The notes beneath the pieces were generated by a model. The model saw nothing but the letters and a program-made list of their open reading frames with translations. It was not told where the DNA came from and ran no database searches. This document shows, piece after piece, positions 6,629 through 36,194 of a stretch of 63,597 bases of DNA. How positions within the stretch are numbered: position 1 is the stretch's first letter; each line of letters opens with the position of its first letter. The stretch comes from a virus: positions 1 through 63,597 of the IMG/VR virus record IMGVR_UViG_3300033182_000943. One strand, given 5' to 3'. Made by a program: the position numbers and the translations under genes.

Positions 6629-6647
6629 CAAACTCGTGTGTGAGGTA

Positions 6648-6721
6648 GCTTCTTTAGCTCAGTTGGTTAGAGCATCTGACTGTTAATCAGAGGGTCCTTG
6701 GTTCGAGGCCAAGAAGAAGCG
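6648..6721 (+). tRNA. tRNA-Asn (anticodon GTT)
   Basis: Acceptor GCTTCTT pairs with AAGAAGC, the D-arm is GCTC/GAGC, the anticodon stem TCTGA/TCAGA holds loop CTGTTAA, and the T-loop is TTCGAGG. CCA is not encoded. Confidence 0.9.
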
Positions 6722-6726
6722 CAAAT

Positions 6727-6808
6727 GGGAGTATCGCATAGCGGCTATTGCAGCGGACTGTAACTCCGCCGTCGTAAGACATCCCTGGTTCGAGTCCAGG
6801 TGCTCCCA
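6727..6808 (+). tRNA. tRNA-Tyr (anticodon GTA)
   Basis: Acceptor GGGAGTA pairs with TGCTCCC. Anticodon stem GCGGA/TCCGC holds loop CTGTAAC. The long variable arm, typical of class II tRNA-Tyr, runs before T-arm CCTGG/CCAGG. CCA is not encoded. Confidence 0.9.
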
Positions 6809-6813
6809 CAAAA

Positions 6814-6884
6814 GCGTCCATGATGTAATGGTAGCATAACGGTCTCCAAAACCGTTCGTCTAGGTTCGAGTCCTAGTGGGCGTG
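6814..6884 (+). tRNA. tRNA-Trp (anticodon CCA)
   Basis: Acceptor GCGTCCA pairs with TGGGCGT, using G-T pairs. Anticodon stem ACGGT/ACCGT holds loop CTCCAAA, and the T-arm is CTAGG/CCTAG. Discriminator base G. CCA is not encoded at the 3' end. Confidence 0.9.
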
Positions 6885-6890
6885 CAATAT

Positions 6891-6965
6891 GGTTCCTTAG
6901 CTCAGTTGGTTCAGAGCATCTCGTTTACACCGAGAAGGTCCTTGGTTCGAGCCCAAGAGGAATCA
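6891..6965 (+). tRNA. tRNA-Val (anticodon TAC)
   Basis: Acceptor GGTTCCT pairs with AGGAATC. Anticodon stem TCTCG/CGAGA holds loop TTTACAC, and the T-arm is CTTGG/CCAAG. Discriminator A, no encoded CCA. Confidence 0.9.
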
Positions 6966-6967
6966 CT

Positions 6968-7041
<74 letters not shown>

Positions 7042-7512
7042 CTAAAGTTTTTTCCTTACGGATAATTGAACAAACTCTTTTGCTGATGTAGTAAAAGAAG
7101 TCTCTAATGATAGACCTTCCTTAAGTTGGAGATGTGCATACACACTAGTAGGGGTTTTGTAGAAACCGTTTCTTGGTAAAGGTCCTAGTAACCAAAACGG
7201 TGCAACACCTAATCTTAAGTGGTCGTTAACCTGGTATTCAATCTGAGTTAGTCTTACTCTTACCTGGGCATTCATTTGATATGTGGAATCTTCTCCCTTA
7301 TATGAAACGGTATTGAAGAGATTGACTAGTTCTACTCTAGGACCAAATAACCACCTACCTTCTGTAAAAGTTTTTTCAACACTTATTGATAGTGAGTTAT
7401 AGTAAGATACATTAGCTGACATTTCTACTGCCCAGCTTTCTGAAGTATCTTTGGACTGTCCTAATACAAACGAGAAGAACAAACAGAGTAAGCATGTTAA
7501 AAAACTTTTCAT
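7042..7512 (-). CDS. Secreted outer-membrane beta-barrel-like protein
   Basis: The 156-residue protein has a type I signal peptide (MKSFLTCLLCLFFSFVLG, then Gln19; the G-Q cleavage site is typical of Bacteroidota). The mature part alternates polar and hydrophobic residues in strands of about 8-10 residues (WAVEMSANVSYYNSLSISVE, LRLGVAPFWLLG, VYAHLQLK) and ends in a strand LSVRKKL. This reads as an 8-stranded outer-membrane barrel. It is one of only four minus-strand genes and runs against the tRNA array, so it is likely a separately controlled accessory gene. A receptor-masking or superinfection-exclusion role is a reasonable guess, not shown. Confidence 0.65.
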   Translation of the reverse strand: MKSFLTCLLCLFFSFVLGQSKDTSESWAVEMSANVSYYNSLSISVEKTFTEGRWLFGPRVELVNLFNTVSYKGEDSTYQMNAQVRVRLTQIEYQVNDHLRLGVAPFWLLGPLPRNGFYKTPTSVYAHLQLKEGLSLETSFTTSAKEFVQLSVRKKL

Positions 7513-7667
7513 AAGGCTTTTCTTTATCTATTGAAGAATGAGACAGCTATACCTACATATAATGTAATATGACTGTAAACTAAATGAGGGTTAAGCAATA
7601 TAATAATAAATCAAACACAGTTTGGTTTAGCTTAAGAAACACAGACCGACCTTATTAGACTATTATA

Positions 7668-7841
7668 ATGCCAGTACCTACATTAGATGAACATATTCAG
7701 ATTCAAGAAATCTTAGCAGAAGCCCGTGCATACGGTTTACAACACGAAGTAAATGAATGGGCCGATAAGTTCATGGATGAATCACCAGAGCTAACTCCAC
7801 TTGAGGCTTATGTAATGGCATTCAATGAGTGGATTAAATAA
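7668..7841 (+). CDS. Small helical acidic hypothetical protein
   Basis: The 57-residue acidic protein consists of two predicted amphipathic helices (HIQIQEILAEARAYGLQHEVNEWADKF broken up, then TPLEAYVMAFNEWIK). It precedes the thioredoxin gene by 17 bases. The helix-turn-helix-like size suits a small regulator or partner protein, but no family is recognised. Confidence 0.6.
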   Translation: MPVPTLDEHIQIQEILAEARAYGLQHEVNEWADKFMDESPELTPLEAYVMAFNEWIK

Positions 7842-7858
7842 ACTAAAATAATTGTATT

Positions 7859-8152
7859 ATGATCACAGAAGATAAAAGCATTCTTAAGGAAGGTAAAGTA
7901 CTTATTGACTTTTGGGCTGAATGGTGTGGCCCTTGTAGAATAATGAAGCCAACTGTTCAAGGGTTTGCAGAATCTCACCCAGATGTAAATGTATACTTTT
8001 GTAATGTTGATGAAGACTCTGAAATGGCAGCAGCATTTGGGGTTAGATCAATTCCTACATTGGTTTATTTAGAAGATGGTGAAGTAAAAGGTCGTAAGGT
8101 TGGTAATGTACCACCTGCAATTATTGAGGAGATGGTTAACTTCAGTGCTTAA
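7859..8152 (+). CDS. Thioredoxin
   Basis: The 97-residue thioredoxin fold has the active site WCGPC at residues 22-26 and the cis-proline segment SIPT with Pro66. The length is close to that of stand-alone thioredoxins. It catalyses dithiol-disulfide exchange in the cytoplasm. In phages such proteins can supply electrons to ribonucleotide reductase or act as polymerase processivity partners, but neither partner is in this window. The stop lies 1 base before the next small membrane gene, so they are co-transcribed. Confidence 0.92.
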   Translation: MITEDKSILKEGKVLIDFWAEWCGPCRIMKPTVQGFAESHPDVNVYFCNVDEDSEMAAAFGVRSIPTLVYLEDGEVKGRKVGNVPPAIIEEMVNFSA

Positions 8153-8153
8153 T

Positions 8154-8339
8154 ATGCCTATCTTACAATACATAATGATTTATTTCCTAGTTGGTGCAGT
8201 GTGTGGGTTCTGTATAGAATTCATTATGCATCGTTTTAAAATGAATGAAGATACAACAATAGGCGAAAGAATTCTTTGGGTTTCTTTATGGCCATATTTT
8301 GTTCTTGCCTTTCTCTATGGCATGATGAAAGATGATTAA
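8154..8339 (+). CDS. Small two-span membrane protein
   Basis: I chose the ATG at 8154, just after the thioredoxin stop, rather than upstream starts that would overlap it. The 61-residue product has hydrophobic spans at about residues 4-23 (QYIMIYFLVGAVCGF) and 39-55 (ILWVSLWPYFVLAFLYG) separated by a charged loop. The second span, with its WPYF core, is typical of small phage membrane proteins of unknown function. Confidence 0.6.
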   Translation: MPILQYIMIYFLVGAVCGFCIEFIMHRFKMNEDTTIGERILWVSLWPYFVLAFLYGMMKDD

Positions 8340-8407
8340 TTTTTACTAATACTCTTTCAGAACATACATCCACTTGTTATAATTATTCTGAATTAATTAA
8401 ATAACAG

Positions 8408-8632
8408 ATGAAAGATAATTTAAGTTCTATCGCTGCCGCCTTTCTATTATTGATTGGTGCATTGCTAATCGGTCTTATCATGGCCTATCCCATGATGTGG
8501 CTATGGAATACCTGCCTAGTACCTGCAGTTACATTTGCAAGCCCTATTACATTTTGGCAAACCTGGGGATTATACATTCTTACCCAGTGGTTCTTTACTA
8601 AATCAACAACAGCAAAATACAAAAAAGATTAA
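8408..8632 (+). CDS. Small membrane protein with MWLWN motif
   Basis: The 74-residue product has a long hydrophobic N-terminal span (residues 6-27), a MMWLWNTCLVPAV motif and a second span followed by a basic tail. The PxMWLWN...P..T.WQ..GL layout is one I recognise from small membrane proteins widespread in myoviruses. Function unknown. It lies just upstream of tRNA-Leu. Confidence 0.65.
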   Translation: MKDNLSSIAAAFLLLIGALLIGLIMAYPMMWLWNTCLVPAVTFASPITFWQTWGLYILTQWFFTKSTTAKYKKD

Positions 8633-8638
8633 CCGAAT

Positions 8639-8726
8639 GGCCGGGTGGTGAAATTGGTATACACGAGGGACTTAAAATCCCTTGGACTGAAAGTCCGTGC
8701 GGGTTCGAGCCCCGCCCCGGCTACCA
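8639..8726 (+). tRNA. tRNA-Leu (anticodon TAA), CCA encoded
   Basis: Acceptor GGCCGGG pairs with CCCGGCT. Anticodon stem AGGGA/TCCCT holds loop CTTAAAA, a long variable arm TTGGACTGAAAGTCC follows, then T-arm GCGGG/CCCGC. Discriminator A is followed by CCA at 8724-8726. None of the other eight tRNAs I checked encodes CCA, so this gene probably has another origin. Confidence 0.92.
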
Positions 8727-8727
8727 A

Positions 8728-8782
8728 GTGGGGAGTTACACAATACGCGTTGGAACTATGTAACTTTAAAATAGAACCCCAC
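8728..8782 (+). ncRNA. Structured tRNA-sized element between two tRNAs
   Basis: GTGGGG (8728-8733) pairs with CCCCAC (8777-8782). Directly inside, AGTTACA (8734-8740) pairs with TGTAACT (8759-8765), leaving an 18-base loop and an 11-base A-rich bulge on the 3' side. Thirteen perfect pairs in 55 bases are unlikely by chance. It has no T-arm or anticodon arm, so it is not a normal tRNA. It could be a processing signal, a degenerate tRNA or a small RNA. Confidence 0.45.
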
Positions 8783-8787
8783 GATAT

Positions 8788-8861
8788 GCGCCGTTAGCTC
8801 AGTTGGATAGAGCATCTGCCTTCTAAGCAGACGGTCTCAGGTTCGAATCCTGAACGGCGTA
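8788..8861 (+). tRNA. tRNA-Arg (anticodon TCT)
   Basis: Acceptor GCGCCGT pairs with ACGGCGT, the D-arm is GCTC/GAGC, anticodon stem TCTGC/GCAGA holds loop CTTCTAA, and the T-arm is TCAGG/CCTGA. It decodes AGA/AGG, used heavily in the late genes. No encoded CCA. Confidence 0.92.
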
Positions 8862-8876
8862 CTAAATTTTAAACAC

Positions 8877-9128
8877 ATGAGTAAATTTGAAAAAGGACAG
8901 AAGGTAACATGGATCAAAGAGATGGCCGTTGTTCCCCACCCGGAAGGGAAAACAGATCGTAAAGGAAATGTACTTCCAGTATTTCGTGACAAAGAAATGA
9001 CAGGTACTATTGTAGGACCTTGTAGTAAAGGGTATGTCGTTAGACCTGATGGTAATCATAAACTGCCACACGGTATGGAAAGGTATTATGACATTACAGT
9101 TGAAACGGAAAAACTAAAAGCAATTTAA
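8877..9128 (+). CDS. Small hypothetical protein, SH3/KOW-like
   Basis: The 83-residue protein begins MSKFEKGQKVTWIKEM and continues through short strands (MTGTIVGPCSKGYVVRPDG). This is the usual look of a small barrel domain that binds nucleic acid or protein. It has no membrane segment. It is transcribed with the next gene, 3 bases downstream. Function unknown. Confidence 0.6.
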   Translation: MSKFEKGQKVTWIKEMAVVPHPEGKTDRKGNVLPVFRDKEMTGTIVGPCSKGYVVRPDGNHKLPHGMERYYDITVETEKLKAI

Positions 9129-9131
9129 GAA

Positions 9132-9353
9132 ATGGAATTCGACGTTTTAGACTCACGAGAAGTTTGGTGGCAAACCACTAACGAGTATGAACTCAGATTT
9201 GATGACGGCGAGGTTAAACAATACCGGGCATCTGAAAATCCTAAAGGTACTGAATTCTTTGTACTAACCAGTGATGGCTGGGAAGAACTAGAAGATGCAG
9301 ATGAATATGATGATGCCTTTTATGAAGCATGGTCTGAAGGAGAGTTAAACTAA
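9132..9353 (+). CDS. Small acidic hypothetical protein
   Basis: The 73-residue, very acidic protein has a beta-rich N-terminal half (EVWWQTTNEYELRFDDGEVK) and a helical acidic C-terminus (EELEDADEYDDAFYEAW). Strong negative charge is often found in phage DNA mimics, but here it may simply be an acidic adaptor. The end of the gene forms the stem of the terminator at 9337-9364. Confidence 0.55.
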   Translation: MEFDVLDSREVWWQTTNEYELRFDDGEVKQYRASENPKGTEFFVLTSDGWEELEDADEYDDAFYEAWSEGELN

Positions 9354-9364
9354 CTCTTCTTTTT
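9337..9364 (+). terminator. Rho-independent terminator overlapping a stop codon
   Basis: AAGGAGAGTTA (9337-9347) pairs with TAACTCTTCTT (9351-9361) with one G-T pair and a three-base loop, and the T-run continues to 9364. The stop codon of the acidic protein gene lies within the stem. Confidence 0.75.
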
Positions 9365-9411
9365 CCGTATAATAATAAATTGCTGCTATCAACAAAAAAA
9401 GCAATAACTAT

Positions 9412-9753
9412 ATGGAAACATTTTACTTTCTCTCAGGTGTATGTGCAGTTATCATTCTTATGATGGTTGTGGGTACGTTTGTAAACTACAGAACAATAGG
9501 TCGCTTGAGAAACGAACTTAATGATGCATTTGATGCAATTGACAATTTAGCAAAAGACTTAGAAAATGATCTAGGTCGCGCCGAAGAAAGCTTGGACTCA
9601 AACATTAACATGGTAGAGAAAAGCCTAACAGACGAAGTCAACGAAATTTATCGTACCCTTGATTCCAGGTTAGATAAGTTAACTGATGGCGTCTCAAAAC
9701 AAATCGCAAACATTTACACGGAGTGTGAGTGTTTAACAAAGGGGTCAAAATAA
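9412..9753 (+). CDS. Membrane-anchored coiled-coil protein
   Basis: The 113-residue protein has an N-terminal membrane span at about residues 5-24 (FLSGVCAVIILMMVVGTFV), followed by a continuous acidic coiled coil to residue 105 with heptad-like spacing of Leu, Ile and Val. A CEC pair lies near the C-terminus. The layout resembles small envelope-spanning or scaffold proteins. A spanin-like or membrane-remodelling function is possible but unproven. Confidence 0.6.
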   Translation: METFYFLSGVCAVIILMMVVGTFVNYRTIGRLRNELNDAFDAIDNLAKDLENDLGRAEESLDSNINMVEKSLTDEVNEIYRTLDSRLDKLTDGVSKQIANIYTECECLTKGSK

Positions 9754-9775
9754 ACTAAACCAAGATAGCAGCAAT

Positions 9776-9848
9776 GCGGGAGTAGCTCAGTTGGTAGAGC
9801 GATAGCCTTCCAAGCTATAGGTCGCGAGTTCGAACCTCGTCCCCCGCT
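9776..9848 (+). tRNA. tRNA-Gly (anticodon TCC)
   Basis: Acceptor GCGGGAG pairs with CCCCCGC with one A-C mismatch at the sixth pair. Anticodon stem ATAGC/GCTAT holds loop CTTCCAA, and the T-arm is GCGAG/CTCGT. It decodes GGA/GGG. No encoded CCA. Confidence 0.88.
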
Positions 9849-9862
9849 CAAATAAATAAAGT

Positions 9863-10971: not shown

Positions 10972-11547
10972 ATGTTTTATAAGTGGGACGAAAAAGAACT
11001 GCAGTTTGATAAAGTATGTATGAAAAGAATAACTCTTATTGTAATCACGCTTTCAGCAATCATACTTCTTGCAGGTTACCTTGTGGGAACGTCTGTTAAA
11101 AAGGAAACTGTAGTACAAGAGTTTACTGAGGCTGAGCAGGTTGTACTTATTCAGGAAATTGATACCTTTAGCCAAGAGGCTTTGGTGATTATGCTAAAGG
11201 AACTTAATGTAAAATATCCTCATATAGTATTGGCCCAGTCTATTGTTGAAACTGGTCATTGGACTAGTCACATCTTTTTGGAGAATCATAATCTCTTTGG
11301 TATGAAACAGGCTCGTCGTAGAATTACCACAGCAGATGGTACCTCCAGGAATCATGCTTATTATGGTCATTGGAGAGAATCCGTGTATGATTATGCATTT
11401 TACCAATGTAGGTATTTGTCTAAATTAGACTCAGAGGAAGAGTATTTTCAGTATCTCGGTTCAAGCTATGCGGAGGCACCTAATTATATAGGCTCATTAA
11501 AGACAGTGATCAAAAGAGAAAACTTAAAAGATCTATTTGATGAGTAA
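10972..11547 (+). CDS. Membrane-anchored glucosaminidase endolysin (GH73/FlgJ-like)
   Basis: The 191-residue protein has a short cytosolic N-terminus, a membrane anchor at about residues 19-40 (ITLIVITLSAIILLAGYLVG), a linker and a C-terminal GH73-type domain. That domain contains IVLAQSIVETGHWTSHIF, the catalytic Glu in VET, and LENHNLFGMK, both typical of FlgJ/Bax-like N-acetylglucosaminidases. It would cleave peptidoglycan from the periplasmic side. The N-terminal span suggests signal-anchor secretion as in SAR-type endolysins. A start at codon 17 (11020) would also keep the anchor. It follows PspC by 3 bases. Confidence 0.85.
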   Translation: MFYKWDEKELQFDKVCMKRITLIVITLSAIILLAGYLVGTSVKKETVVQEFTEAEQVVLIQEIDTFSQEALVIMLKELNVKYPHIVLAQSIVETGHWTSHIFLENHNLFGMKQARRRITTADGTSRNHAYYGHWRESVYDYAFYQCRYLSKLDSEEEYFQYLGSSYAEAPNYIGSLKTVIKRENLKDLFDE

Positions 11548-12172
11548 GGCTTTTTGTCTAGGCGTGTGGAAAACAGGTACTACTTCGGTAGGTAAGGCTC
11601 TTAATCAATTGATAGGTGGTTATCATGATGGTAATACTGATTGGTCCGATCATAGAGCACTTCATCTTAAAAATATAGTAGATGGAAATACTTCAAAGAT
11701 TGCTAGTCTTAATCATCTAATAAGTAGATATTCAACCTTTGATGATAATCCTTGGAATAGATCCATGGTAATTGAAGAACTTAAAAACTACAAAAAATAC
11801 AAATACATACTTACTACGAGGGATCCTGACGAATGGCATTATAGCGCATATTCATTTTATCGTAAGAAAATGGAAAGAGGAGAGCTTAGTGGTTTTGATA
11901 TTTGGAGTTTGTATCAAGCTGAATTCAAATGGGTGTTAGGTGATTCCGTTGATCTGACACAAGTAGTTGAAGATGATTTTTCAGGAATGGTTAAACATAA
12001 ATCATTTTGGGTTGATTGGTTTAACCAAAGGAATGAAAAGGTTAAAGGGATGTTTAAAGGTAATCTATTAGAGTACAATATATCCGATGGGTTAGGTTGG
12101 GAACCTTTATGTAATTATCTTGGTAAAGAGATTCCAACAAAACCTTTTCCAAGACTTAATAGCCAAAACTAA
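11540..12172 (+). CDS. Sulfotransferase-family protein
   Basis: The 210-residue protein opens with GVWKTGTTSV (residues 8-17), the phosphosulfate-binding loop of PAPS-dependent sulfotransferases, with Lys11. TRDPDEW at 93-99 fits the 3'-phosphate site and PFPRLN near the C-terminus fits the family's closing motif. It should transfer sulfate from PAPS to a carbohydrate or other acceptor. The acceptor is unknown; surface polysaccharide or a phage glycan are plausible. The ATG at 11540 overlaps the lysin stop, so it is co-expressed with lysis genes. A TTG three bases upstream is less likely. Confidence 0.78.
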   Translation: MSKAFCLGVWKTGTTSVGKALNQLIGGYHDGNTDWSDHRALHLKNIVDGNTSKIASLNHLISRYSTFDDNPWNRSMVIEELKNYKKYKYILTTRDPDEWHYSAYSFYRKKMERGELSGFDIWSLYQAEFKWVLGDSVDLTQVVEDDFSGMVKHKSFWVDWFNQRNEKVKGMFKGNLLEYNISDGLGWEPLCNYLGKEIPTKPFPRLNSQN

Positions 12173-18278: not shown

Positions 18279-21194
18279 ATGGCATTTAATTTAAAAGAAT
18301 ACATTCTTTATAGAACCGAGATTAACCGTGAGCTTTTTAATAGTGAAGTTGACACTAACTTTAAAAGTGTTGCTAATCCATGGGTAGAAGAAAGAGTGTA
18401 TGAGGAAGGTAATATCGTATATCATCCAGTCACTGTTGAATTAGCAACAGGATCCGAGGAGGAGGCCTTAGCATGGTGGAGAGCAAACCAAAGAACAACG
18501 CAAGGTTCATTTGACACCAATGAATGGGACCTTATTGGAGGTATAGGTACTGGTGATATTACCATAGGTGCCCAACCTGGATTCGGAAAGATCGTTGTTA
18601 ATTACACTGGAACTACAGGTACTTTCCAAGCAGGCAATGATGCTGTTCTATCTGCAACGGTTCCTAATGATACCACTAGGCTTATAGGCGGTGCGGGTAT
18701 TAATCTGCAATATGATACCACAACAAATACAGTTAAGATAATTAATTCAGGTTCTGTTGGTGAAGCAAATCATGGAGTTAATATAGGTGTTGGCGGCCAG
18801 GATGTTTATGCAGGTTTAGATGGAACCGATTTAGAGTTTAGAGGATTTGATGTTAATGCTTCAAGTAGTCCTGCATTAACAATATCTTTAGATGCTACAA
18901 ATAATAATATTGAATACGGACTAAGTGAAGGAGCAATAAGCTTGGCTAACTTAGACGGTGGATCTCCTACCATTACAGATCTTTCTGACGTATCATCAAC
19001 ACCTCCTACAAATAATTACATTCTTCAGTGGAATAGTGGTACAGGTCTTTGGACTCCAGTAAGTGTTGCTTCATCAGGTGCACAAGGTCCTCAAGGTTAC
19101 CAAGGTTACCAAGGTTACCAAGGACTTACTGGTTCTGGTGCTACTGGTGCTACTGGTGTAGCCGGCCCACAAGGTAATACTGGTGGATCTGGGGCAACTG
19201 GACCTATAGGATATACTGGAGCAACCGGTTCTGGTGCTACTGGGGCAACCGGTCCACAGGGATTTGATGGAGAGCAAGGAAATGTTGGTGCCACTGGTTC
19301 TGGTGCTACTGGGGCAACCGGTCCTGCTGGGACTGGAGCAACTGGAGCAACTGGTCCTGCTGGGACTGGTGCCACTGGAGCAACTGGTCCTGCTGGGACT
19401 GGAGCAACTGGAGCAACTGGTCCTGCTGGGACTGGTGCCACTGGAGCAACTGGTCCTGCTGGGACTGGTGCCACTGGAGCAACCGGTCCTGTTGGTGCAA
19501 CTGGTGCTGGTTCCATTGGAGCAACCGGTAATCAGGGTGATCCTGGTTCTATTGGAGCAACTGGGGCTCAGGGTGATACTGGGTTTACTGGAGCAACTGG
19601 CTCTGGTTCCATTGGAGCAACTGGGGCTCAAGGTGATACTGGGTTTACTGGTTCAACTGGAGCCCAAGGAGATACGGGATTTACTGGTTCAACCGGAGCC
19701 CAGGGTGATACCGGGTTTACTGGTGCCACTGGATCTGGTCTCACTGGAGCTACTGGAGCCCAGGGCGATACCGGGTTTACTGGTGCCACTGGATCTGGTC
19801 TCACTGGAGCTACTGGAGCCCAGGGTGATACCGGGTTTACTGGAGCCACTGGTGCCCAAGGGAATATTGGAGCCACTGGAGCCCAAGGAGATACCGGGTT
19901 TACCGGTTCAACTGGAGTGCAAGGTGATACAGGATTTACTGGAGCTACTGGTTCTGGTCTCACTGGAGCAACTGGGGCACAAGGTGATACCGGGTTTACT
20001 GGTGCCACCGGATCTTCTGGAGCCCAAGGATTTACAGGTGCAACTGGAGCCCAAGGTGATACAGGATTTACCGGTTCAACTGGGTCTTCTGGGGCCCAAG
20101 GATTTACCGGGTTCACTGGAGCTACTGGCGTAAAAGGATTTACTGGAGCTACTGGAGCACAGGGATTTACTGGAGCTACTGGAGCACAGGGTAACGATGG
20201 TGGTATTGGTGCCGATGGTTCAAATGCACTTAGATGGGAATTTGGTGGTGTTTCAATATCTAATCCACCGTCAGGAGAATTTTATGCTAATAATGTAAAC
20301 ACTGGCGGTGTTGGATCTTTTAATATTAGTTATGATGATACAAACTCAACTAACGTAAGTACATGGCTTTCTAATTTGGAAGCAGGTGATACTCTTGCTA
20401 TTTACCAATTAGACAACACTTCACAGTTTGGAATTTATATAGTCAATTCAGTCACAGACGTTCCGGCTGATAGTTACTATACAATTACTTTTAGCTCGGT
20501 GGTTGCTTCTAGCGGATCATTTAGTATTGGTGAAACGTGGTCCATTTCTTATAACAAAGCCGGTAATACTGGAGCTACTGGGTTAACTGGAGCTACTGGG
20601 GCGCAAGGTGCTACTGGTGGTTCAAGTACACTAGGTAAAGAAAATCCTATAGCAGAAACATCAATCTATATTCAGGGTGGACTTCCAGTTGTATCAACAT
20701 ATGCGGTCTGCGGTCGGAACACTGATGGGGGCTGGTCTCAAAACTGGACCGCTGCTAGTGGACAGATAAATTCAAGTACCTTGAGATTAAGTTATGATTA
20801 TTCTAATGCTGCAATTAATCTGATAGATGATCTCCAGGCGGACCAGGCAATATATGTTAGATATAAAATTACATGGCCACATGTTGGCGGTACCAGCGGT
20901 GATATAGGAATTCGTGCATTTAAACATACGTGCGGTGATGATGATGGTGCTGGGTCCATGAACATTCAAAATATAAATTCAGCAGGATATACTTCATCCA
21001 CCACGGTTTATGATGGTAGTGGTAATTGGGCAACCGATTGTGGAGTGGCTGTATTACCGTTGACCCAAGTGGTTACTGCTTCTACCGATAGAATCTTTAT
21101 AGGTTTTGCTGTAAATGTATCTGAAAGAGAATTGCAAACCGCTAACATTCAACTTTCATGGAAGGCATGGGTAGATGATGCCCCAGTTCCGTAA
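18279..21194 (+). CDS. Collagen-like tail fibre protein
   Basis: The 971-residue protein has an N-terminal attachment domain (about 1-260) opening [20 protein letters not shown], a long Gly-X-Y collagen-like region at about 266-647, a globular insert at about 650-765, a second short GATG run and a C-terminal beta domain to the end. Collagen-like triple helices form shafts of phage fibres, with the C-terminal domain binding receptors. The Gly-X-Y part is rich in Thr and Ala rather than Pro ([11 protein letters not shown]). The minus-strand open frames over the repeats are artefacts of its periodicity. Confidence 0.85.
19074..20218 (+). repeat. DNA repeats encoding the collagen-like shaft
   Basis: The shaft is encoded by nested repeats. 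A 33-base unit encoding [11 protein letters not shown] is present in about five nearly identical copies at 19329-19490. It is followed by looser 36-51-base units encoding AQGDTGFTG and SGLTGATG. Synonymous changes between units are few in the first block, which suggests recent expansion by recombination or slippage. Confidence 0.8.
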
Positions 21195-27306: not shown

Positions 27307-28734
27307 ATGCCCTTAGTAGATTTAGCAAACCCTTTAAATAGTGGAGGCCTTAGACAATTGGCCGGACCATTTGGTGATGTATTTGGGCCAGGTGATCAAT
27401 TTCCTAATTCATATGAGTTCGGTAAAAGATTTGTTTCTACTGCCTCATCTGTATCAGGTGGAGGTAACGGTGTTACTAGTTTAGATGACCCGACATATTT
27501 AGGGTTTCAGATTAGATTTGATGGTATGAGTCCTCTATTTAACGGAGCAGAGATAGGGTCTACAGAACCTCCTGTCAACCAGGTACCATCAATTGCAGAT
27601 TTAGCAGCACAAGAGTTAGGATTTATAAATGGAAACCCTGATGATACTACTAATGCTAATTCAGGGAGCCATCCATCGGGTGAGTCTGCTGTAGGTTACT
27701 TGGAAAAGGTAGGTGAAGCAAACAGAGCTAATTATCTTAGATCATTTGTACAAGGTATTAGACACATAGAGAGAACTAGGCCTTATTATTTTCAAACCAT
27801 TGAAGGGCTATCGGAAGCATGGAACAAAACCGTTAATATGGTTGATCCTTATGGTGGAGCTGCCGAAGGCGAAGGAATTACGATAGGATTGCTTGAAGCT
27901 ATCGACCTAAAAATGTCAGCTCTATTTAGTCTTTATAAATTGGCATGTTATGACACTAGGTACAAAAGAACAGTTTTACCTATTAACCTAATGTACTTTA
28001 ATGTTGATGTTGATGTATTTGAAATTAGAAAATTTAAAACAGTTAGAAATTGGTTAGCTGCTCTTAATCTTAGCGATACTTCACCAGATACAATTAACTT
28101 CGTAAATGAAAATACTTCAAAGATTACCTTTAGATTTGAAGAATGTAAATGGGATCCTACCCAAACCGGAGTTATATTTGGTAATGTTACAAATGCAGGT
28201 GGAAATGCCATGGCCGTCAGTTCTATGAAATGGAGTTATGGGAGAGTTTTAATGGATTCCCAATTCTCAGGTTACAACTCAGCTCTTAAAGATGCAGCGC
28301 AACAAAAACCTGAATCACCTACATTAAAGAATGCAGTTAAAAACTTTGCAAAAGATCAATTAGCAAATGCAGCTAAAGGGGCTGTGAATAATTTACAAAG
28401 AGGGTTATCTTCAAAGTTTCAAAGTTTTGCTTTAGGTAATGTATTTGGTTTAAGAAATCAAATATTTAATGCAATACAAAATCCACAAGCAGTATTAAGT
28501 GCTGCACAAGGTGCATTGGTTCAAACCGAGCAAATAGGTGGTGATTTAGCTAAAATAAATAGGCTAGGAGATAATCCATTGGGTGAAGCAGTACAACCGC
28601 CTAACTCATTACCTACTGATAATATAAACGCAGGACAGATCCCATCGGATCCTAGTCCTTTAAGTTCTAATAATATATTTGGGCGTGGACCATCAGGACC
28701 CGCCCCTCTTGAATCTAATAATGTATTTGAATAA
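27307..28734 (+). CDS. Tail-tube-like baseplate protein
   Basis: The 475-residue protein has a central tube-like domain (about 140-310): RTRPYYFQTIEGLSEAWNKT, then helix DLKMSALFSLYKLACYD, strand VLPINLMYFNVDVDVFEI and ITFRFEECKWDP. This is the strand-helix-strand order of gp19-type tube proteins. The C-terminal 150 residues are low complexity, rich in Asn, Ala and Pro. It lies between hub and spike genes and may be a tube-initiator ring. Its stop overlaps the spike start. Confidence 0.62.
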   Translation: MPLVDLANPLNSGGLRQLAGPFGDVFGPGDQFPNSYEFGKRFVSTASSVSGGGNGVTSLDDPTYLGFQIRFDGMSPLFNGAEIGSTEPPVNQVPSIADLAAQELGFINGNPDDTTNANSGSHPSGESAVGYLEKVGEANRANYLRSFVQGIRHIERTRPYYFQTIEGLSEAWNKTVNMVDPYGGAAEGEGITIGLLEAIDLKMSALFSLYKLACYDTRYKRTVLPINLMYFNVDVDVFEIRKFKTVRNWLAALNLSDTSPDTINFVNENTSKITFRFEECKWDPTQTGVIFGNVTNAGGNAMAVSSMKWSYGRVLMDSQFSGYNSALKDAAQQKPESPTLKNAVKNFAKDQLANAAKGAVNNLQRGLSSKFQSFALGNVFGLRNQIFNAIQNPQAVLSAAQGALVQTEQIGGDLAKINRLGDNPLGEAVQPPNSLPTDNINAGQIPSDPSPLSSNNIFGRGPSGPAPLESNNVFE

Positions 28735-29621
28735 TGGGAAGATTAAGTGCAAGAGACCTAGCATCTGATAGTTTAAGAGGTACCCAATGGGTTGGGGTGG
28801 TTGAAGATACTGAAGACGAACTTTTTGAAGGAAGGGTTCGCTTAAGAGTTTTTGGTAAGATGGATCAAAGAGTAGACCCAGAGGATCCTGAGAGTGATTA
28901 TGTAATGCCTACAGCTGCATTACCTTGGGCAAGGCCTTCTGTTGCATCTTCCGGTGGAAGCAATAGTGGAAGTGGAACCTTTTCGGTTCCTAAGATAGGT
29001 ACTATAGTTAGGGTTACTTTTGATAACGGAAATTACTATTCTCCAGTTTATCATGAAAGCTTATATCCTTCAGATGAGCTGAAGGCTGAAATAGAAGCAT
29101 CATATCAGAATTCTCATGTACTTATTTACGATACCGCCTTTGGTTTAACTGGCGGTGGTAATGAAGAAGTTACTAATGAAAGAGAAGGTGAAAGTATAAA
29201 GGTTTTCTTTACTGAGGAAAAGGGACTAATGATGGATTATACCACAACGGAAGGTCCTACTACAGTTAACATTAAGCCTGATAATTCTGTTGAAATAATA
29301 AATGCAAACGGGGATTCAATTGTAATGCTTAATGATGGTAACATTACATTTACACATTCCGCAAAATTCATAATTAATAGTACTGATAACACAGAGATTA
29401 ATTGTAAGGATGCAATTATTAATTGCCAAAATACTATTATTAATCATTCATCATCAATTGAATTAGGCCAAGGTGCTAGCGAAAAGATCATATTAGGTGA
29501 TACCTTTATGAAGTTCTTTAATCAACATACACATGTTGGAAACCTCGGGGCTCCTACCTCGCCTCCTATAGTACCTATGTCTCCTGCACAACTTAGTAAG
29601 AAGAACGTCAAATCTCTATAA
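28734..29621 (+). CDS. Central spike protein (gp5/VgrG-type, without lysozyme)
   Basis: The 295-residue protein has an N-terminal OB-fold (WVGVVEDTEDELFEGRVRLRVFG; then VPKIGTIVRVTFDNGNYYSP). A regular beta-helix follows from about 175 (SVEIINANGDSIVMLNDGNI, DNTEINCKDAIINCQNTIIN). It ends in FNQHTHVGNLGAP, the HxH-type metal-binding tip typical of spikes. T4 gp5 carries an internal lysozyme domain; there is none here. It punctures the outer membrane. Confidence 0.85.
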   Translation: MGRLSARDLASDSLRGTQWVGVVEDTEDELFEGRVRLRVFGKMDQRVDPEDPESDYVMPTAALPWARPSVASSGGSNSGSGTFSVPKIGTIVRVTFDNGNYYSPVYHESLYPSDELKAEIEASYQNSHVLIYDTAFGLTGGGNEEVTNEREGESIKVFFTEEKGLMMDYTTTEGPTTVNIKPDNSVEIINANGDSIVMLNDGNITFTHSAKFIINSTDNTEINCKDAIINCQNTIINHSSSIELGQGASEKIILGDTFMKFFNQHTHVGNLGAPTSPPIVPMSPAQLSKKNVKSL

Positions 29622-29645: not shown

Positions 29646-29933
29646 ATGGCACTAGTACCTCCAACTCTACAAGAATCATTAACAGCTGCTTATGCGGCGG
29701 CATTAACAGACTTCATTGCAGTCATTAAAGCTAACCCACTAGGAACCGATGCAGGCGCCGCGAACTTAACAGCAGCTGTCGCATCTTCATCTGTGATATT
29801 TGGTAAGTTATCCGGAACTGCAATTGATGCATATATTAGATCTGCACAGGTTGCACCAGGCCAGGTTGTTACAACTGCGGGTACCGCTGTTGCCCAGACT
29901 GGTGCTACAACAACCCCAGGTGTTCTGGTATAA
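29646..29933 (+). CDS. Small Ala-rich baseplate-associated protein
   Basis: The 95-residue protein has an Ala-rich helical core (LTAAYAAALTDFIAVIKANP, then TAIDAYIRSAQV) and ends PGQVVTTAGTAVAQTGATTT followed by PGVLV. The layout 'helices, YI-SA-V-PGQ-V, T-PG' is one I recall from small proteins encoded next to spikes in contractile tails and injection systems. It may be a spike-tip or tube accessory protein. Function unproven. Confidence 0.55.
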   Translation: MALVPPTLQESLTAAYAAALTDFIAVIKANPLGTDAGAANLTAAVASSSVIFGKLSGTAIDAYIRSAQVAPGQVVTTAGTAVAQTGATTTPGVLV

Positions 29934-29990: not shown

Positions 29991-31154
29991 ATGATCGAAC
30001 AAGAAATTACGATCCAATTAAGCGACGATCCGTTTGACACAAAAACAATTAAAGTCCTAGTTCCACCAGGAACCAAAATTTTATCCACAGAGCCTTATGT
30101 AGCCGATGTACTTGAAATGTACAGTCTTTCAGAATCTGTAGAAAAGCAACTTCATTTATGCGAGGATATGCAAAGCTATACCACCCAAGGCGAAATAGTT
30201 GGATTTTCATTAGATAAAGAAGGTAATAAAACTACCGCAATAATTGACTTAGGAACTAAGTACACTGCAATATGTCATTTATTGAAAGAACCTAAACACA
30301 TAGTAGAACAATTAGAAGAAGGTATTGTTGTAGATGTTAAAGTTAAGCCTGGTAAAAATGGAAATGTTATAGCTTCAATCTCAGATGCAATAGATGAAGT
30401 TAAGATGAAGGAAATTATGAATGCTATTGGTGATAAGACCATAGGATTCACTGGAAAGGTTACCGAGCTGTTACATGGTGGTTACTGGGTTGAGGTTGGT
30501 GGTATACAATGCTTTATGCCAGGTTCTCTAGCAGGCCTTAATAAGTTATACGATTTTAACTCTTTAGTTGGAAAGGAAATTATAGTTATGCCAATATCTT
30601 ATTCTGATGAAAAGAATACGATTATTGTTTCTCATAGAGAATACTTAAGAACTTTAATTCCTAGCGCAGTTGAATCGGCTAGAGAAAATATCAAAGATCA
30701 TATAACCGGGTTTGTTACAGGTACTACTAAGTTTGGTATATTTGCTGAGTTTAATGAATGCTTAACAGGTCTTATTCCATTATCTGACGTAGATGAAGAT
30801 ACATTAACCAAGTTTAATAATAGAGAGATTAAGCCAGGTGATGATATCAGTTTCTGGATTAAAGAAATTATCACCGAAAGAAAAATTATCTTATCTCAAA
30901 CCGGTCCTAAAGAAAACATCTGGGATGATGCTAATGATAAGTATAAGCCTATGATGATTACACCCGGTAAAGTTACAAAGGTTACTAAATACGGAGCCTT
31001 CGTTGAACTAGAAAAAGGTATCAGCGGATTAATTCATAAATCTAAACTTAAAGAAATTGAGTTAACTAAAGGTGATGTTGTTAATGTAAAAATACAAAGC
31101 ATCAATGCAAGTGATAGAAAGATAACTATGAATCTAGCTGAAAGTGAAGGGTAA
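29991..31154 (+). CDS. Ribosomal-protein S1-like, four S1 domains
   Basis: The 387-residue protein has an N-terminal extension (1-60) and four S1/OB repeats at about 64-132, 150-216, 235-303 and 321-382. The last is a textbook S1 domain: GKVTKVTKYGAFVELEKGIS, GLIHKSKLKEI, KGDVVNVKIQSINASDRKI. Repeat three has GFVTGTTKFGIFAEF. Cellular bS1 has four to six repeats and delivers mRNA to the 30S subunit. A phage copy could bind phage mRNAs and recruit ribosomes, or interfere with host bS1. It is encoded among baseplate genes, which is odd for a translation factor. It overlaps the methyltransferase gene by 11 bases. Confidence 0.88.
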   Translation: MIEQEITIQLSDDPFDTKTIKVLVPPGTKILSTEPYVADVLEMYSLSESVEKQLHLCEDMQSYTTQGEIVGFSLDKEGNKTTAIIDLGTKYTAICHLLKEPKHIVEQLEEGIVVDVKVKPGKNGNVIASISDAIDEVKMKEIMNAIGDKTIGFTGKVTELLHGGYWVEVGGIQCFMPGSLAGLNKLYDFNSLVGKEIIVMPISYSDEKNTIIVSHREYLRTLIPSAVESARENIKDHITGFVTGTTKFGIFAEFNECLTGLIPLSDVDEDTLTKFNNREIKPGDDISFWIKEIITERKIILSQTGPKENIWDDANDKYKPMMITPGKVTKVTKYGAFVELEKGISGLIHKSKLKEIELTKGDVVNVKIQSINASDRKITMNLAESEG

Positions 31155-31722
31155 AGAGAAACTTATAATAAACGATGAAAGGATCGTCTACGCAGATCCT
31201 AGCTCAGCTAGCTTAGGTCAAGGAACTATGGTTATGATGCGGTGGGAGGACGAGATCATGAGGTTAAGCTCAAAATGGGTAACTTATAATCAAGGTGATA
31301 TTTTGGAGTTTGGTTTTGGTATGGGATTATCTGCTGGTCATATACAATCATATAAACCAAAAAGTCATACTATAATTGAAATACACCCTGAGATTGCAAA
31401 GAAAGCTGAAGAATGGGCAAAGGATAAACCTGGGGTTAAAATCATAAATGCAGATTGGTGGGATGTAAAGGATGATTTGGAAATGTATGATGGTATATTT
31501 TTTGATACATTTAATGATCGCCATGAACCCGACTGGTTTAAGGTAGCCCAGAGTAAATCAAAGCCAAACTGCCACATATCATTTTATAATAACAGGCCGT
31601 ATAGAGGTAATGCATACGGCATAGAAGTGGTTGACTATATTCACAAGAGAGTTATGCCACCTAAGAATGACTATTACTGGTACACCAATTATTATGTACC
31701 TTTGGTTATTCATAATCCATAA
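31144..31722 (+). CDS. GAMT/RMT2-like guanidino-group N-methyltransferase
   Basis: The 192-residue SAM-dependent methyltransferase has VMMRWEDEIM at 30-39, motif I ILEFGFGMGLSAGHIQ around 53-68, the acidic strand end HTIIEIHPE at 75-83 and YDGIFFDTF at 115-123. VM.RWE..yM, LE-GFGM and DGI-yDT are the conserved motifs of guanidinoacetate methyltransferase and the yeast arginine delta-N-methyltransferase Rmt2, which methylates a ribosomal protein. The substrate may be a protein arginine or a small guanidino compound. The start lies inside the S1-like gene, so the two are translationally coupled. Confidence 0.82.
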   Translation: MKGKEKLIINDERIVYADPSSASLGQGTMVMMRWEDEIMRLSSKWVTYNQGDILEFGFGMGLSAGHIQSYKPKSHTIIEIHPEIAKKAEEWAKDKPGVKIINADWWDVKDDLEMYDGIFFDTFNDRHEPDWFKVAQSKSKPNCHISFYNNRPYRGNAYGIEVVDYIHKRVMPPKNDYYWYTNYYVPLVIHNP

Positions 31723-31735
31723 TCTTTATGCATGG

Positions 31736-31744
31736 AATATATAA
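31736..31744 (+). promoter_or_regulatory. Candidate late promoter motif AATATATAA
   Basis: AATATATAA lies 17-25 bases before the ATG of the amidoligase-like gene at 31761. Confidence 0.45.
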
Positions 31745-31760
31745 ACAAATTAGATAATGC

Positions 31761-33059
31761 ATGTATTCCAACGAACAGCTTAATGCCATATATTCGTCTA
31801 AGGTAGGTTTTGAATTTGAATTTTTTGCTAATGAAGATATACAAGAAGCAAAAACAAGCATAGCCAATACTCTTAATAAGAAAATCCGTATCGAGGAAAA
31901 GGCCCATAGTGACTTTACCCCAACCGATGAAGTATTTAAGATGGAGCCTGATAATTCCGGTGGTACTGGAATGATTGAGCTAGTTACCGGCCCACTACCT
32001 TTTGTTGAAGCTAAAATAATAATGGCTAAAACTTTAAAGTGGATTCAGGAAAATGGATCAACTAATGATAGATGTTCTATTCATGTTAACTTAGCATTTG
32101 ATGGTAAAAAGTTAGGACCAATAACCAATATGTCTAAACTGGATATTGGTAAGTTTGTTTTAAACTTTGATGAAGATAAAGTATATGAAGCCTTTCCAAA
32201 CAGAAAGGATTCTGTTTATGCTAAATCAATTAAGTTTATCGTGCCTCTTAGCGGAATGACTCAGAATTCGCCAGGTAAAAATATGTGGCATAATTACATG
32301 TTTGTTAATGAGAAGTATTATGGAATTAATTTTACCAAGATTCCTAAGGGTTATATTGAATTCCGTTACTTAGGTGGTAAAGATTATGAAAAGAAGTATA
32401 ACACCATTCTTTCTATGACTGAGCATTTTCTGCTTTCTCTTTATGAAACATTAACCAATCCAACTTATAGCGAGGATGATATGAAAAAGCTTGATGCTGT
32501 TCTTGAAAAACACCAAGATGTAATTCAATCATATAAGACCTATCAAAGGTTTAAGGAAAAGTTTCCAGATGTTAAGATTATGATTGATCTTAAAACTGCT
32601 GATCAAATAGTAGAAATGTATTATCCTAGAATAAGAGATCGCATTTTTGATTTGCTTACTAAGGCAGATTTAAAAGAAGGACTTATAAACTATGATAGCG
32701 ATACTGGGCGTATTCAAATAAAGGATGCCGAGTTAAAAAGATGTTTTGAAATCAATGATGTTGATATTGTTGATTGTATAATAAAAGGAAACATTAAGGG
32801 CTGTGATATATTTAGCAGTGAATTGGTGGATTCATCAATTTTTGAATGTAACCTTTTCGGTGGTACTGAATGTAAAGGATGTAAGATTGAAGAATCTTAT
32901 GTTAGTAGAAATGTAACTGCTGATGAGTGCTATGTGTTTGGTCATAGGGGTGTATTCAGTGGAGAGATGGAAGGTGGAATATTTAGACAAGGCAGAGCCA
33001 CAAAGTTTGCCAGATTTAGTGATACCACTGAGGTCATAGAAATAGAAAAAATTAAATAA
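31761..33059 (+). CDS. Amidoligase-like enzyme with C-terminal pentapeptide-like repeats
   Basis: The 432-residue protein has the pattern of the glutamine-synthetase-fold amidoligases: VGFEFEFF at 15-22, MIELVTGPL at 71-79, CSIHVNLAF at 105-113 (His108, Asn110) and YIEFRYLGG at 198-206 (Glu200, Arg202). Those enzymes form amide bonds between carboxyl and amino groups using ATP. Residues about 335-415 form a second domain with short repeated steps such as IVDCIIKGNIKGCDIFSSEL and several Cys, like a pentapeptide-repeat helix. A protein- or peptide-tagging role is plausible. The neighbouring methyltransferase and S1-like genes suggest a common target. Confidence 0.72.
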   Translation: MYSNEQLNAIYSSKVGFEFEFFANEDIQEAKTSIANTLNKKIRIEEKAHSDFTPTDEVFKMEPDNSGGTGMIELVTGPLPFVEAKIIMAKTLKWIQENGSTNDRCSIHVNLAFDGKKLGPITNMSKLDIGKFVLNFDEDKVYEAFPNRKDSVYAKSIKFIVPLSGMTQNSPGKNMWHNYMFVNEKYYGINFTKIPKGYIEFRYLGGKDYEKKYNTILSMTEHFLLSLYETLTNPTYSEDDMKKLDAVLEKHQDVIQSYKTYQRFKEKFPDVKIMIDLKTADQIVEMYYPRIRDRIFDLLTKADLKEGLINYDSDTGRIQIKDAELKRCFEINDVDIVDCIIKGNIKGCDIFSSELVDSSIFECNLFGGTECKGCKIEESYVSRNVTADECYVFGHRGVFSGEMEGGIFRQGRATKFARFSDTTEVIEIEKIK

Positions 33060-33061
33060 GT

Positions 33062-33904
33062 ATGCCATACGTAGACTGCAATGATCCGGATGCTAAAGAT
33101 TGTTTAGACGCTCTCATTAAGGAAATAAATGAAGAGCTAACTATTACATGCCAAATACCTTTTACCGTTCCTAAGAAGGAAATAGCTAGAATAGTAAGTA
33201 AAGCAAAAAACTATTTCTATAAGATCTATGAAGATAGTGTAGAGGAAATGTATATTGCATTACCTAGATCTGCGTGGGCTAAAACAAGCTTTAGAAAAGG
33301 TATTAACGATGAGAGTGATGCTCTATCTAAAACCAACCTAGATAGTACAAGAGGGATAGTACCAATGCCTCCTGGTGTATGGGCTGTAAATAATGTTTGG
33401 GAATGGTCAGGTTTTAGTGGAGAAGATGGTGGATTTGGTAGTACTTCTTTTTCCGCAGGCGATCCGGATTTTTCAATTGATAAGTTTATTTACTCTGATA
33501 CATACGGTGCTGGTATAGGTTCAGAAAACCTGATGTATTATGTAATTAATTCTAAGTTTATTGATAATGCAAGACAAGTATTACAAGCACAAATATCATA
33601 TTCCTATAATAGGTTAACTAATAAGTTTAGATTCCAAGGACAGTTACCCAAACATGCATGTATCTTCCAAATATACAAAACAATTCCAGACTGTGCACTG
33701 TTCCAAGATGAAGCCTTCTACCGTTATTGCGTAGGTATGGCTAAAATACAGCTATCTAGAATTCTAGGGACCTTCCAATTTAATCTACCAGGTAACATTA
33801 CCATAAACTACGATATGATAGCCAGTGAAGGGAGAGAAGATGTTGATCGTGTAGTTGAGGAGATTAAAGGAGATGAAGGTGTTGACTATTTCTTCACAGG
33901 ATAA
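33062..33904 (+). CDS. Virion structural protein
   Basis: The 280-residue protein has an N-terminal helical part (KKEIARIVSKAKNYFYKIYE), a middle Trp/Gly/Ser-rich segment and a C-terminal part with YRYCVGMAKIQLSRILGTFQ and ITINYDMIASEGREDVDRVV. It directly precedes gp25. That C-terminal pattern recurs in baseplate- or neck-associated proteins of large phages, but I cannot name the T4 counterpart. Confidence 0.6.
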   Translation: MPYVDCNDPDAKDCLDALIKEINEELTITCQIPFTVPKKEIARIVSKAKNYFYKIYEDSVEEMYIALPRSAWAKTSFRKGINDESDALSKTNLDSTRGIVPMPPGVWAVNNVWEWSGFSGEDGGFGSTSFSAGDPDFSIDKFIYSDTYGAGIGSENLMYYVINSKFIDNARQVLQAQISYSYNRLTNKFRFQGQLPKHACIFQIYKTIPDCALFQDEAFYRYCVGMAKIQLSRILGTFQFNLPGNITINYDMIASEGREDVDRVVEEIKGDEGVDYFFTG

Positions 33905-33960: not shown

Positions 33961-34323
33961 ATGATTAGAGACATATATAGTAGGAATGCCGAGGCCTTCA
34001 AATATAATGAAGATGTTGTAGAGGTTACAGATGAGGTGTCTCAGCTTATACTGAAAATAGAGAACGTTTTGTTTTCAAGAAGAGGCGATGTATTAGGAGC
34101 ACCGGGTTATGGCTGTAATCTTGATGATCTTATCTTTTCTTTAGTATTTAATGAAGCAGTAGTTAAGCAGAGAATTGTATCCCAGATACAAGCATATTGT
34201 TTACCTGATGATTCAAGGTTCTCTATTGATGTACAGGTTAAATTCTTTCAAACATTAGAAAGAGCAGGTGCATTGGTGGATATTTTTATTAATGAAAATA
34301 GGGTCATAGGCGCATTATTTTAA
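33961..34323 (+). CDS. gp25: Baseplate wedge protein gp25-like
   Basis: The 120-residue protein matches the gp25/TssE family: ILKIENVLFSRRGDVLGAPG then YGCNLDDLIF, where the RxGe..g.P.yGc motif is the family signature, followed by helices and a C-terminal barrel. gp25 forms the core of the wedge and starts sheath assembly. The length is close to T4 gp25 (132 residues). The gp6-like gene follows by 14 bases, the usual partner. Confidence 0.88.
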   Translation: MIRDIYSRNAEAFKYNEDVVEVTDEVSQLILKIENVLFSRRGDVLGAPGYGCNLDDLIFSLVFNEAVVKQRIVSQIQAYCLPDDSRFSIDVQVKFFQTLERAGALVDIFINENRVIGALF

Positions 34324-34337
34324 AAATATAGAATTGA

Positions 34338-36194
34338 ATGTCATTCTTTAGTAGAACACGAATAAAGGCAACAGAGCTGTTTCAGGATTCATTTGAATAC
34401 CTGGCAAGAACTTATGAACAGGCAAGAGAGGTGTTTACTCCAGCTTCGCCGTTTGGGCAAATCCTTACTGTGATAGCTAATTTAGGTGAAATGATTTTCT
34501 TTTATATTGAAGCAGTTGCTACCGAGCTCAATATATCAAGAGCAAGAAACATTGAATCTATTTACGGTCTTTCAAGATTAACCGGTCACGATCCTACGAG
34601 AGGTATTTCTGCCAGGGGAATTATAGGATTAAGATTAAATCAAAATGCAAGTGCATTAGTAAACGGTGACTTTGTTCAAATTATGAATAAAGCAAAATTT
34701 GAAGTAGGGAACAACGGATTATCCTACTTCTTAAACTTTGATAGTGATTACATTAGATTAGAAAAGACAGATAGACAATTTGTAAATGTTGAAATTATAC
34801 AGGGGGAGGTTGAAGATCAAACATTTACTGGAAGCGGTACATCATTACAGAGTTACAATCTTACCACCAAAGAACCAACGGACCAACATCTTGTAACGGT
34901 TCATGTTGATGGGCAGCTTTGGAGAAAGGTTGATTCACTGTATGATATGGGTCCTAATGAAAAATGTGTAATGGTCAAAACCAGCGTTAATGGTGGTTTA
35001 AGTATATTCTTTGGCAATAATCAGTTTGGTATGGCTCCTGCATTAGGATCAATTATTAAAGTTACTTATGTTAAGACTAGAGGTAATGCAGGTAATATAG
35101 GTGGTAAGAATTTAGATATTAAGTTCCAAGATGAAGGTACTGATTACATCGGTGATGGGGTTGATCTTAATGAGGTTCTTTCTTTAGATATTGTACGTAA
35201 TCCTAATTTTGGATCTGATACTGAAGACCCAGCGTTTACAAGATTAATTGCTCCATACCAAAGCAATTCATTTGTATTGGCAAATCCTAATAATTACATT
35301 TACTATCTTAGTAAGTATGATGCGTTTTCTTTCATAGATGCATACAATACGAAAGATGACCAATATTTAGATGATGACAATATCATTTATCTTTTCTTAG
35401 TTCCAGATATTAAGAAAAAGATTACAAGCGATAAGGATTACTTTAATGTAGCTGAAGAAGAGTTTACTTTAACGGCTGATGAAAAGGAGCAGGTTTATGA
35501 AATCTTAAATGCTAGCGGTAGGCAAGTAGTAACCGCTGAGGTTAGAATTAATGATCCTATAATAAAAAGATATGCTCTTAACATTGTTCTTAGGTGGATA
35601 GAAGGATATGATAAAGATGATATTACTGTAGAGATAAGAAAGCAATTAAATGACTATTTCTTAAATGTAAATAGAAGAGATCGTATTCCAAGATCTGATA
35701 TTATTTCAATCATAGAAAATGTTGAAGGGGTTGACTCTGTTAATGTGTTCTTTATTTCACAGGAAAATGAAAAGGCAATTGCCGATGGTTTTTATTTTGT
35801 GCCGGTTTATGGTATTGATCCAGCAACAGATCAAAAGGCATTGATTGAAAATAAAAAGATTGTATTAGCAGAAGGGGAAGATCCACAAATAGGTTTGGAT
35901 GAATTTGGTGATATTATTATTGGCCCTGATGATATAGCAATTATTAGAGGTGGTTGGAAAGACAGAAACGGTACGTACTTTGAAGAAGTTCCTGTTAAGA
36001 ATGGTATCGGTTCATTGAATGTTTTCTATAAGTCTGTAATTTCAGGTAACTTATACAACAAAACTCAACAAGAAAGATATGATCAGTTAAGAAGAAACAG
36101 AGGTACTACTATTGCTACTGGTAGAAATTCTAGATCATCTAATACTGGAAGATTACAGGGCGAATCAACACAAAAAGTAATTAACAACTTATAA
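34338..36194 (+). CDS. gp6: Baseplate wedge protein gp6-like (baseplate J)
   Basis: The 618-residue protein begins with a helical FSRTRIKATELFQDSFEYLA and SPFGQILTVIANLGEMIFFY. These are followed by LNISRARNIESIYGLSRLTG, typical of gp6/baseplate J. The middle has VNGGLSIFFGNNQFGMAP and a C-terminal VEGVDSVNVFF. Length is close to T4 gp6 (660 residues). It forms the ring-closing heterotrimer with gp7 in T4. The C-terminal 50 residues are Arg/Asn/Gly-rich and look disordered. Confidence 0.85.
   Translation: MSFFSRTRIKATELFQDSFEYLARTYEQAREVFTPASPFGQILTVIANLGEMIFFYIEAVATELNISRARNIESIYGLSRLTGHDPTRGISARGIIGLRLNQNASALVNGDFVQIMNKAKFEVGNNGLSYFLNFDSDYIRLEKTDRQFVNVEIIQGEVEDQTFTGSGTSLQSYNLTTKEPTDQHLVTVHVDGQLWRKVDSLYDMGPNEKCVMVKTSVNGGLSIFFGNNQFGMAPALGSIIKVTYVKTRGNAGNIGGKNLDIKFQDEGTDYIGDGVDLNEVLSLDIVRNPNFGSDTEDPAFTRLIAPYQSNSFVLANPNNYIYYLSKYDAFSFIDAYNTKDDQYLDDDNIIYLFLVPDIKKKITSDKDYFNVAEEEFTLTADEKEQVYEILNASGRQVVTAEVRINDPIIKRYALNIVLRWIEGYDKDDITVEIRKQLNDYFLNVNRRDRIPRSDIISIIENVEGVDSVNVFFISQENEKAIADGFYFVPVYGIDPATDQKALIENKKIVLAEGEDPQIGLDEFGDIIIGPDDIAIIRGGWKDRNGTYFEEVPVKNGIGSLNVFYKSVISGNLYNKTQQERYDQLRRNRGTTIATGRNSRSSNTGRLQGESTQKVINNL

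Follow-up and report, generated by a model that had tools for sequence, protein, structure and literature searches.

The window analysed here is the whole 63.6-kb stretch of IMG/VR virus record IMGVR_UViG_3300033182_000943 (63,597 nucleotides), which derives from a tailed phage, large in size, whose baseplate genes are of the contractile-tail kind. The region of interest lies on the + strand and is preceded by a gene for a gpV-like baseplate spike protein (28734..29621, +; Pfam Phage_base_V, PHROG baseplate hub) and by a 95-residue protein of unassigned function (29646..29933, +), which has no family match and is often found at the same place in relatives. These are followed by an S1-like protein of 387 residues (29991..31154, +), a GAMT-fold SAM methyltransferase of 192 residues with a GTG start (31144..31722, +) and an Amidoligase_2-like protein of 432 residues (31761..33059, +), in which a GS-like domain (residues ~1–300) is joined to a C-terminal β-helix (~305–432). 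On the downstream side are a head-tail-adaptor-like protein (33062..33904, +; PHROG head-tail adaptor Ad2, E = 5.6e-9), a gp25-like baseplate wedge subunit (33961..34323, +; PHROG baseplate wedge subunit, E = 7.6e-4) and a 618-residue protein (34338..36194, +) that is presumed from its position to be the large, gp6-like baseplate wedge. An earlier note on this DNA had placed the three central genes among baseplate genes and had listed their coordinates, their motifs and an 11-base overlap between S1 and the methyltransferase; all of these are correct in the window ORFs, with the gpV-like spike gene on one side of the block and the gp25-like wedge gene on the other. Elsewhere in the window are nine tRNA genes (6555-9849), a sulfotransferase (11540-12172; PF17784, E = 5e-31) situated in the stretch that separates the tRNA cluster from the structural genes, and a GroES-like co-chaperonin (58568-58855).

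Scans of viral contigs revealed at least 511 relatives of the S1-like protein, at least 528 of the amidoligase and at least 460 of the methyltransferase, and gene order was read around the 80 best of each. Among the best 80 amidoligase loci (of at least 528), S1 lies directly upstream in 72 of the 72 with a long enough contig; among the best 80 S1 loci (of at least 511), the amidoligase lies directly downstream in 75/75 by the same measure. For S1 and the amidoligase these counts show a conserved neighbourhood in related phages. The gap between the two genes is 40–49 bases in 121 of 155 locus pairs, some contigs having been read twice, and in a 270-kb phage record the genes overlap by 11 bases. 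Relatives keep the order of the spike, S1, amidoligase, adaptor, gp25-like and large wedge genes, and the same order is found, with extra genes in between, in LR756500, a 462-kb metagenomic phage. The block is far beyond chance, since dozens of independent contigs have these genes in this order. The phages that share the pair are a group of large, uncultivated phages, and no description of an S1 locked to an amidoligase inside a baseplate operon was found in the literature searched. The junction of the two genes is also an insertion spot, where a 135-residue ORF (L008 type), a 333-residue ORF (L183) and two reverse-strand ORFs (L002) were observed. In LR745206 the amidoligase is near baseplate genes with S1 far away, and in LR756504 it is near the adaptor and gp25-like genes; the amidoligase therefore tracks the virion genes more faithfully than it tracks S1.

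The methyltransferase was found between S1 and the amidoligase in only two contigs of the loci read, the window and L139. When 32 other S1-amidoligase records were searched whole (the window, a further methyltransferase-bearing record, is not counted among them), the enzyme was present in two, in the same slot in L139 and behind a tail fibre in the record of L071. Its own relatives occupy a different setting. Among the best 80 methyltransferase loci (of at least 460), a single large cluster of repeat/fibre proteins is directly upstream in 59 and a family of ~230-residue proteins directly downstream in 70, and most of the 80 (L088-L167) have the order tail fibre, methyltransferase, ~230-residue protein; example loci with this cassette order are L158:9989-10555 and L245:4279-4839. 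Nine of the upstream proteins were compared with PHROG families, and six of them match tail or tail-fibre families; in 44/72 loci the methyltransferase start lies within the end of the upstream gene, with a one-base overlap. In the 270-kb record, the methyltransferase sits behind a gene of the fibre cluster, ~70 kb from the S1-amidoligase pair. One member of the ~230-residue family has weak CBM96 similarity, and the window itself encodes a collagen-like tail-fibre protein of 971 residues (18279-21194), distant from the methyltransferase. An Arg-x-x-Gly-Tyr motif is conserved near the C terminus of 29 of 72 upstream fibres, and it is not proposed as a substrate because it is missing from the window's own fibres.

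The methyltransferase of the window is, consequently, a rare passenger from a separate and normally tail-fibre-adjacent family, and what had been described as a cassette is a conserved S1-amidoligase pair with a rare methyltransferase insertion. A three-gene operon was rejected on the basis of synteny, and the proposal that the three genes form one system is not supported. The mechanism attached to that proposal, in which the amidoligase and the methyltransferase modify S1 or the ribosome and so redirect translation, draws on the very tight adjacency of S1 and the amidoligase, including their overlap in the 270-kb record, and on the finding that every huge-phage record with a full-length amidoligase match also has a strong S1 match. 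It appears very unlikely, however, given that the methyltransferase occupies the slot in two contigs only and belongs to tail-fibre cassettes, that S1 and the amidoligase are unlinked in LR745206, and that S1 is kept beside a catalytically dead amidoligase in one clade.

The sole strong family match of the window methyltransferase is GAMT (phmmer against the mammalian enzyme, E = 3.6e-10 as a single sequence and 9e-22 as a family profile), which is also the best PDB match of its AlphaFold model (pLDDT 92; TM up to 0.82). In GAMT, Glu45 contacts the guanidino group. Asp134 is the proton acceptor (PMC12471008). Residues E35 and D121 of the window protein align to Glu45 and Asp134, respectively, and are invariant in 47 relatives. 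With the GAMT fold predicted and this guanidino pair in place, the GAMT/Rmt2-like label given earlier is right in kind, although its two halves fare differently. Rmt2 has an N-terminal domain ahead of its methyltransferase domain. Because no such domain precedes the catalytic fold of the 192-residue phage protein, which has ~27 residues ahead of the VMMRWE motif, Rmt2 proper was rejected and the Rmt2 option is not favoured. From sequence and predicted fold, the phage enzyme is classed as GAMT-like and not as GAMT proper. Its GTG start is backed by the L139 orthologue, which has an ATG at the homologous codon (MKGKE...), sharing a single base with the stop codon of S1. There was no convincing PHROG match among the family members tested, a phage collection searched with two methyltransferase queries returned one record only, a huge metagenomic phage, and single-sequence scans with the window methyltransferase and the LR756504 amidoligase as queries found no relative or only one. 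A genome scan for relatives of the methyltransferase yielded one contig of a Flavobacteriales bin, in tail-fibre context, and two GAMT-like genes, in Saprospiraceae and Thiothrix. No paper describing a GAMT-like enzyme or an arginine methyltransferase from a phage was found in the literature search.

Methylation of a guanidino group is the probable activity of the enzyme, with a protein arginine as the most likely target. Action on a small guanidino metabolite such as guanidinoacetate, arginine or a relative, rather than on protein, would fit the fact that the closest solved structure, GAMT, is a small-molecule enzyme; it is nonetheless improbable in view of the tight coupling to tail-fibre genes and of the lack of any recognised metabolic gene as a consistent neighbour.

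Against the Pfam family Amidoligase_2 the window amidoligase scores 20.1 bits, just below the cut-off of 22, and the orthologue from the same locus in L087 passes with 27.1 bits; 18 of 38 members match at E <= 0.01. The AlphaFold model (pLDDT 90) is comprised of a GS-like N-domain, which carries the E/E/H/N/E/R active-site pattern, and the C-terminal β-helix. Foldseek searches with the model returned glutamine synthetases, with low TM-scores, and also viral proteins annotated as amidoligases. The presence of the quoted motifs and the predicted GS-like fold bear out the amidoligase assignment in kind. The Cys-rich repeats described earlier are, in the model, a β-helix or pentapeptide-like domain and not a metal-binding array, and a relative has a weak pentapeptide-repeat match.

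Amidoligase_2 genes are found in phage cassettes of predicted peptidoglycan or surface role (PMC5498523, PMC3890496); in the podovirus cassette, genes for a glutamine amidotransferase and an ATP-grasp enzyme lie next to the amidoligase. By analogy, the window protein might be a cell-envelope enzyme that introduces unusual amide bonds into peptidoglycan or surface peptides of the host, perhaps as a defence against superinfection. This seems unlikely, since no GATase or ATP-grasp gene was seen among the window proteins searched, the gene belongs to a baseplate operon, with baseplate genes as its neighbours, rather than to an early cassette, and one clade retains the protein without its active site.

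That clade consists of three full-length amidoligases at the same locus (L183:12204-13505, L196:1598-2899 and L228:11219-12520), in all of which the active site is destroyed. E18, E73 and E200 are changed in 3/3, H108 and R202 in two of the three each, and E20 and N110 in one each. The three are 61–71% identical to the window copy and form a single clade in the tree (100/98), beside the active copy L035. The dN/dS among them is 0.13–0.29, and 0.21–0.29 for the N-domain, well below 1 and thus indicative of purifying selection, and pairs of active amidoligases with a finite value give 0.04–0.09; these values are rough because dS is ~1 or more. No second amidoligase copy was found in the three records, which are fragments of 28–79 kb. 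On the simplest reading of the three sequences, catalytic activity disappeared in a single event and the protein was retained for another role. Because one clade keeps the protein with a destroyed active site, the amidoligase probably also has a non-catalytic role, an argument drawn from three sequences, one loss event and incomplete records; given its location within the baseplate gene set, this role is likely to be in structure or assembly.

The S1-like protein matches the bS1 chains of solved ribosomes with E = 6e-34, and its assignment to the S1 family was right in kind. NCBIfam S1 profiles cover residues 48–383, collinear with bS1 domains 1–4; domains 5–6 are absent from the phage protein, and the window copy passes no bS1 equivalog cut-off among these profiles. 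Four S1 domains had been described, and bS1 profiles do align across domains 1–4, although Pfam is significant for two stretches only. L243, at first sight a shortened S1 containing a gap, is in fact an S1 reading frame split in two. In a tree with cellular bS1 sampled from Bacteroidota and Pseudomonadota, the phage S1 proteins fall outside the cellular sequences as one group on a long branch, and therefore look like an old phage lineage. As the group lies outside both sampled phyla, S1 phylogeny was uninformative as a guide to the host.

The start regions of the window show no enrichment of Shine-Dalgarno motifs (5.7% versus 3.9% in shuffled sequence). An A is present at −13, and likewise at −12, in 50 of 70 predicted genes (P = 2e-5 each), and A is not enriched at −3 or at −6, positions used by Flavobacterium. 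In the pooled starts of relatives the frequency of A at −14 to −12 is 0.65–0.74, with SD-like motifs slightly above chance (5.8% versus 2.3%). The A(−13/−12) pattern has been described for Flavobacterium (Bacteroidetes), where bS1 has been proposed to read it (PMC6847099). We infer a host without Shine-Dalgarno use, most likely one of the Bacteroidota. Huge phages with a possible rpS1 rarely show an identifiable SD (Al-Shayeb et al. 2020, PMC7162821), and the bS21 gene of Bacteroidetes phages, which is late-expressed, is situated with the structural genes (Chen et al. 2022, PMC9723584). On the strength of these two precedents and of the SD-less A(−13/−12) starts, the S1-like protein is best read as an initiation helper that acts late in a Bacteroidota host. 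A general RNA-binding or virion protein, for example one that is delivered along with the phage DNA or that protects phage mRNA, is a less likely alternative: the gene sits among baseplate genes, a long branch separates it from cellular bS1, and S1 domains are common in non-ribosomal proteins (PMC6375957), whereas the collinear alignment with bS1 domains 1–4 and the start pattern of the window argue for the initiation helper.

Taken together, the homologies and predicted folds, the residues kept and lost, the gene order and the start pattern suggest a late-expressed initiation helper S1, an assembly-associated amidoligase and a mobile guanidino-methyltransferase, a reading to which we give an even chance. 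The S1-like protein would be produced together with the virion proteins, would probably bind the 30S subunit of the host, the A-rich leaders of phage mRNAs or both, and would thereby favour initiation on phage mRNAs in a non-Shine-Dalgarno host. The amidoligase would be tied to tail or baseplate assembly; in most of these phages its GS-like domain probably spends ATP on an amide bond in a virion or envelope substrate, and the protein may double as a scaffold or structural component. The pairing of the two genes probably represents shared late expression and not S1 as a substrate of the amidoligase, although their near-perfect adjacency could reflect a functional link that is understated here. 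The methyltransferase family normally travels with tail fibres, in cassettes where its translation would be coupled to that of the fibre gene, and has here been inserted at the S1-amidoligase junction. Modification of virion proteins is plausible. It is possible, if on balance doubtful, that phage GAMT-fold methyltransferases modify arginines of the adjacent upstream tail fibre and that, separately, the amidoligase is a recruited virion or assembly component, purely structural in one lineage.

The strongest surprises are the fibre-linked family of GAMT-fold methyltransferases and the inactivated amidoligase clade. If correct, the reading bears on how phages of non-Shine-Dalgarno hosts win ribosomes, through a phage S1 and a testable −13/−12 A motif, on whether phages alter the chemistry of their own virions through guanidino methylation of fibres, and on how a ligase turns into a structural protein, for which the inactivated clade would be a natural experiment separating both roles.

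Compared with GAMT, the phage methyltransferases share the fold, the VM..WE motif, the E45/D134 equivalents and the D-T motif, but the family is 192 residues long, is found in tail-fibre cassettes and has D in place of GAMT's R before WE in 36 of 47 members. Rmt2 shares the GAMT-like catalytic domain and a guanidino substrate; its N-terminal domain sets it apart from the phage enzyme and the short segment before VMMRWE there. The Amidoligase_2 proteins (PF12224) of LUZ24-like and PSA-HP1-like podoviruses likewise have a GS-like fold and an E/E/H/N/E/R active site, whereas the proteins described here have an extra C-terminal β-helix, a baseplate location and one catalytically dead clade, with no GATase or ATP-grasp partner seen. 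Phage rpS1 (PMC7162821) and bS21 (PMC9723584) are likewise phage copies of initiation-related ribosomal proteins in SD-poor genomes, and bS21 is likewise located among virion genes in phages with predicted Bacteroidetes hosts; here, in contrast, S1 is locked to an amidoligase gene in a baseplate operon across a phage clade.
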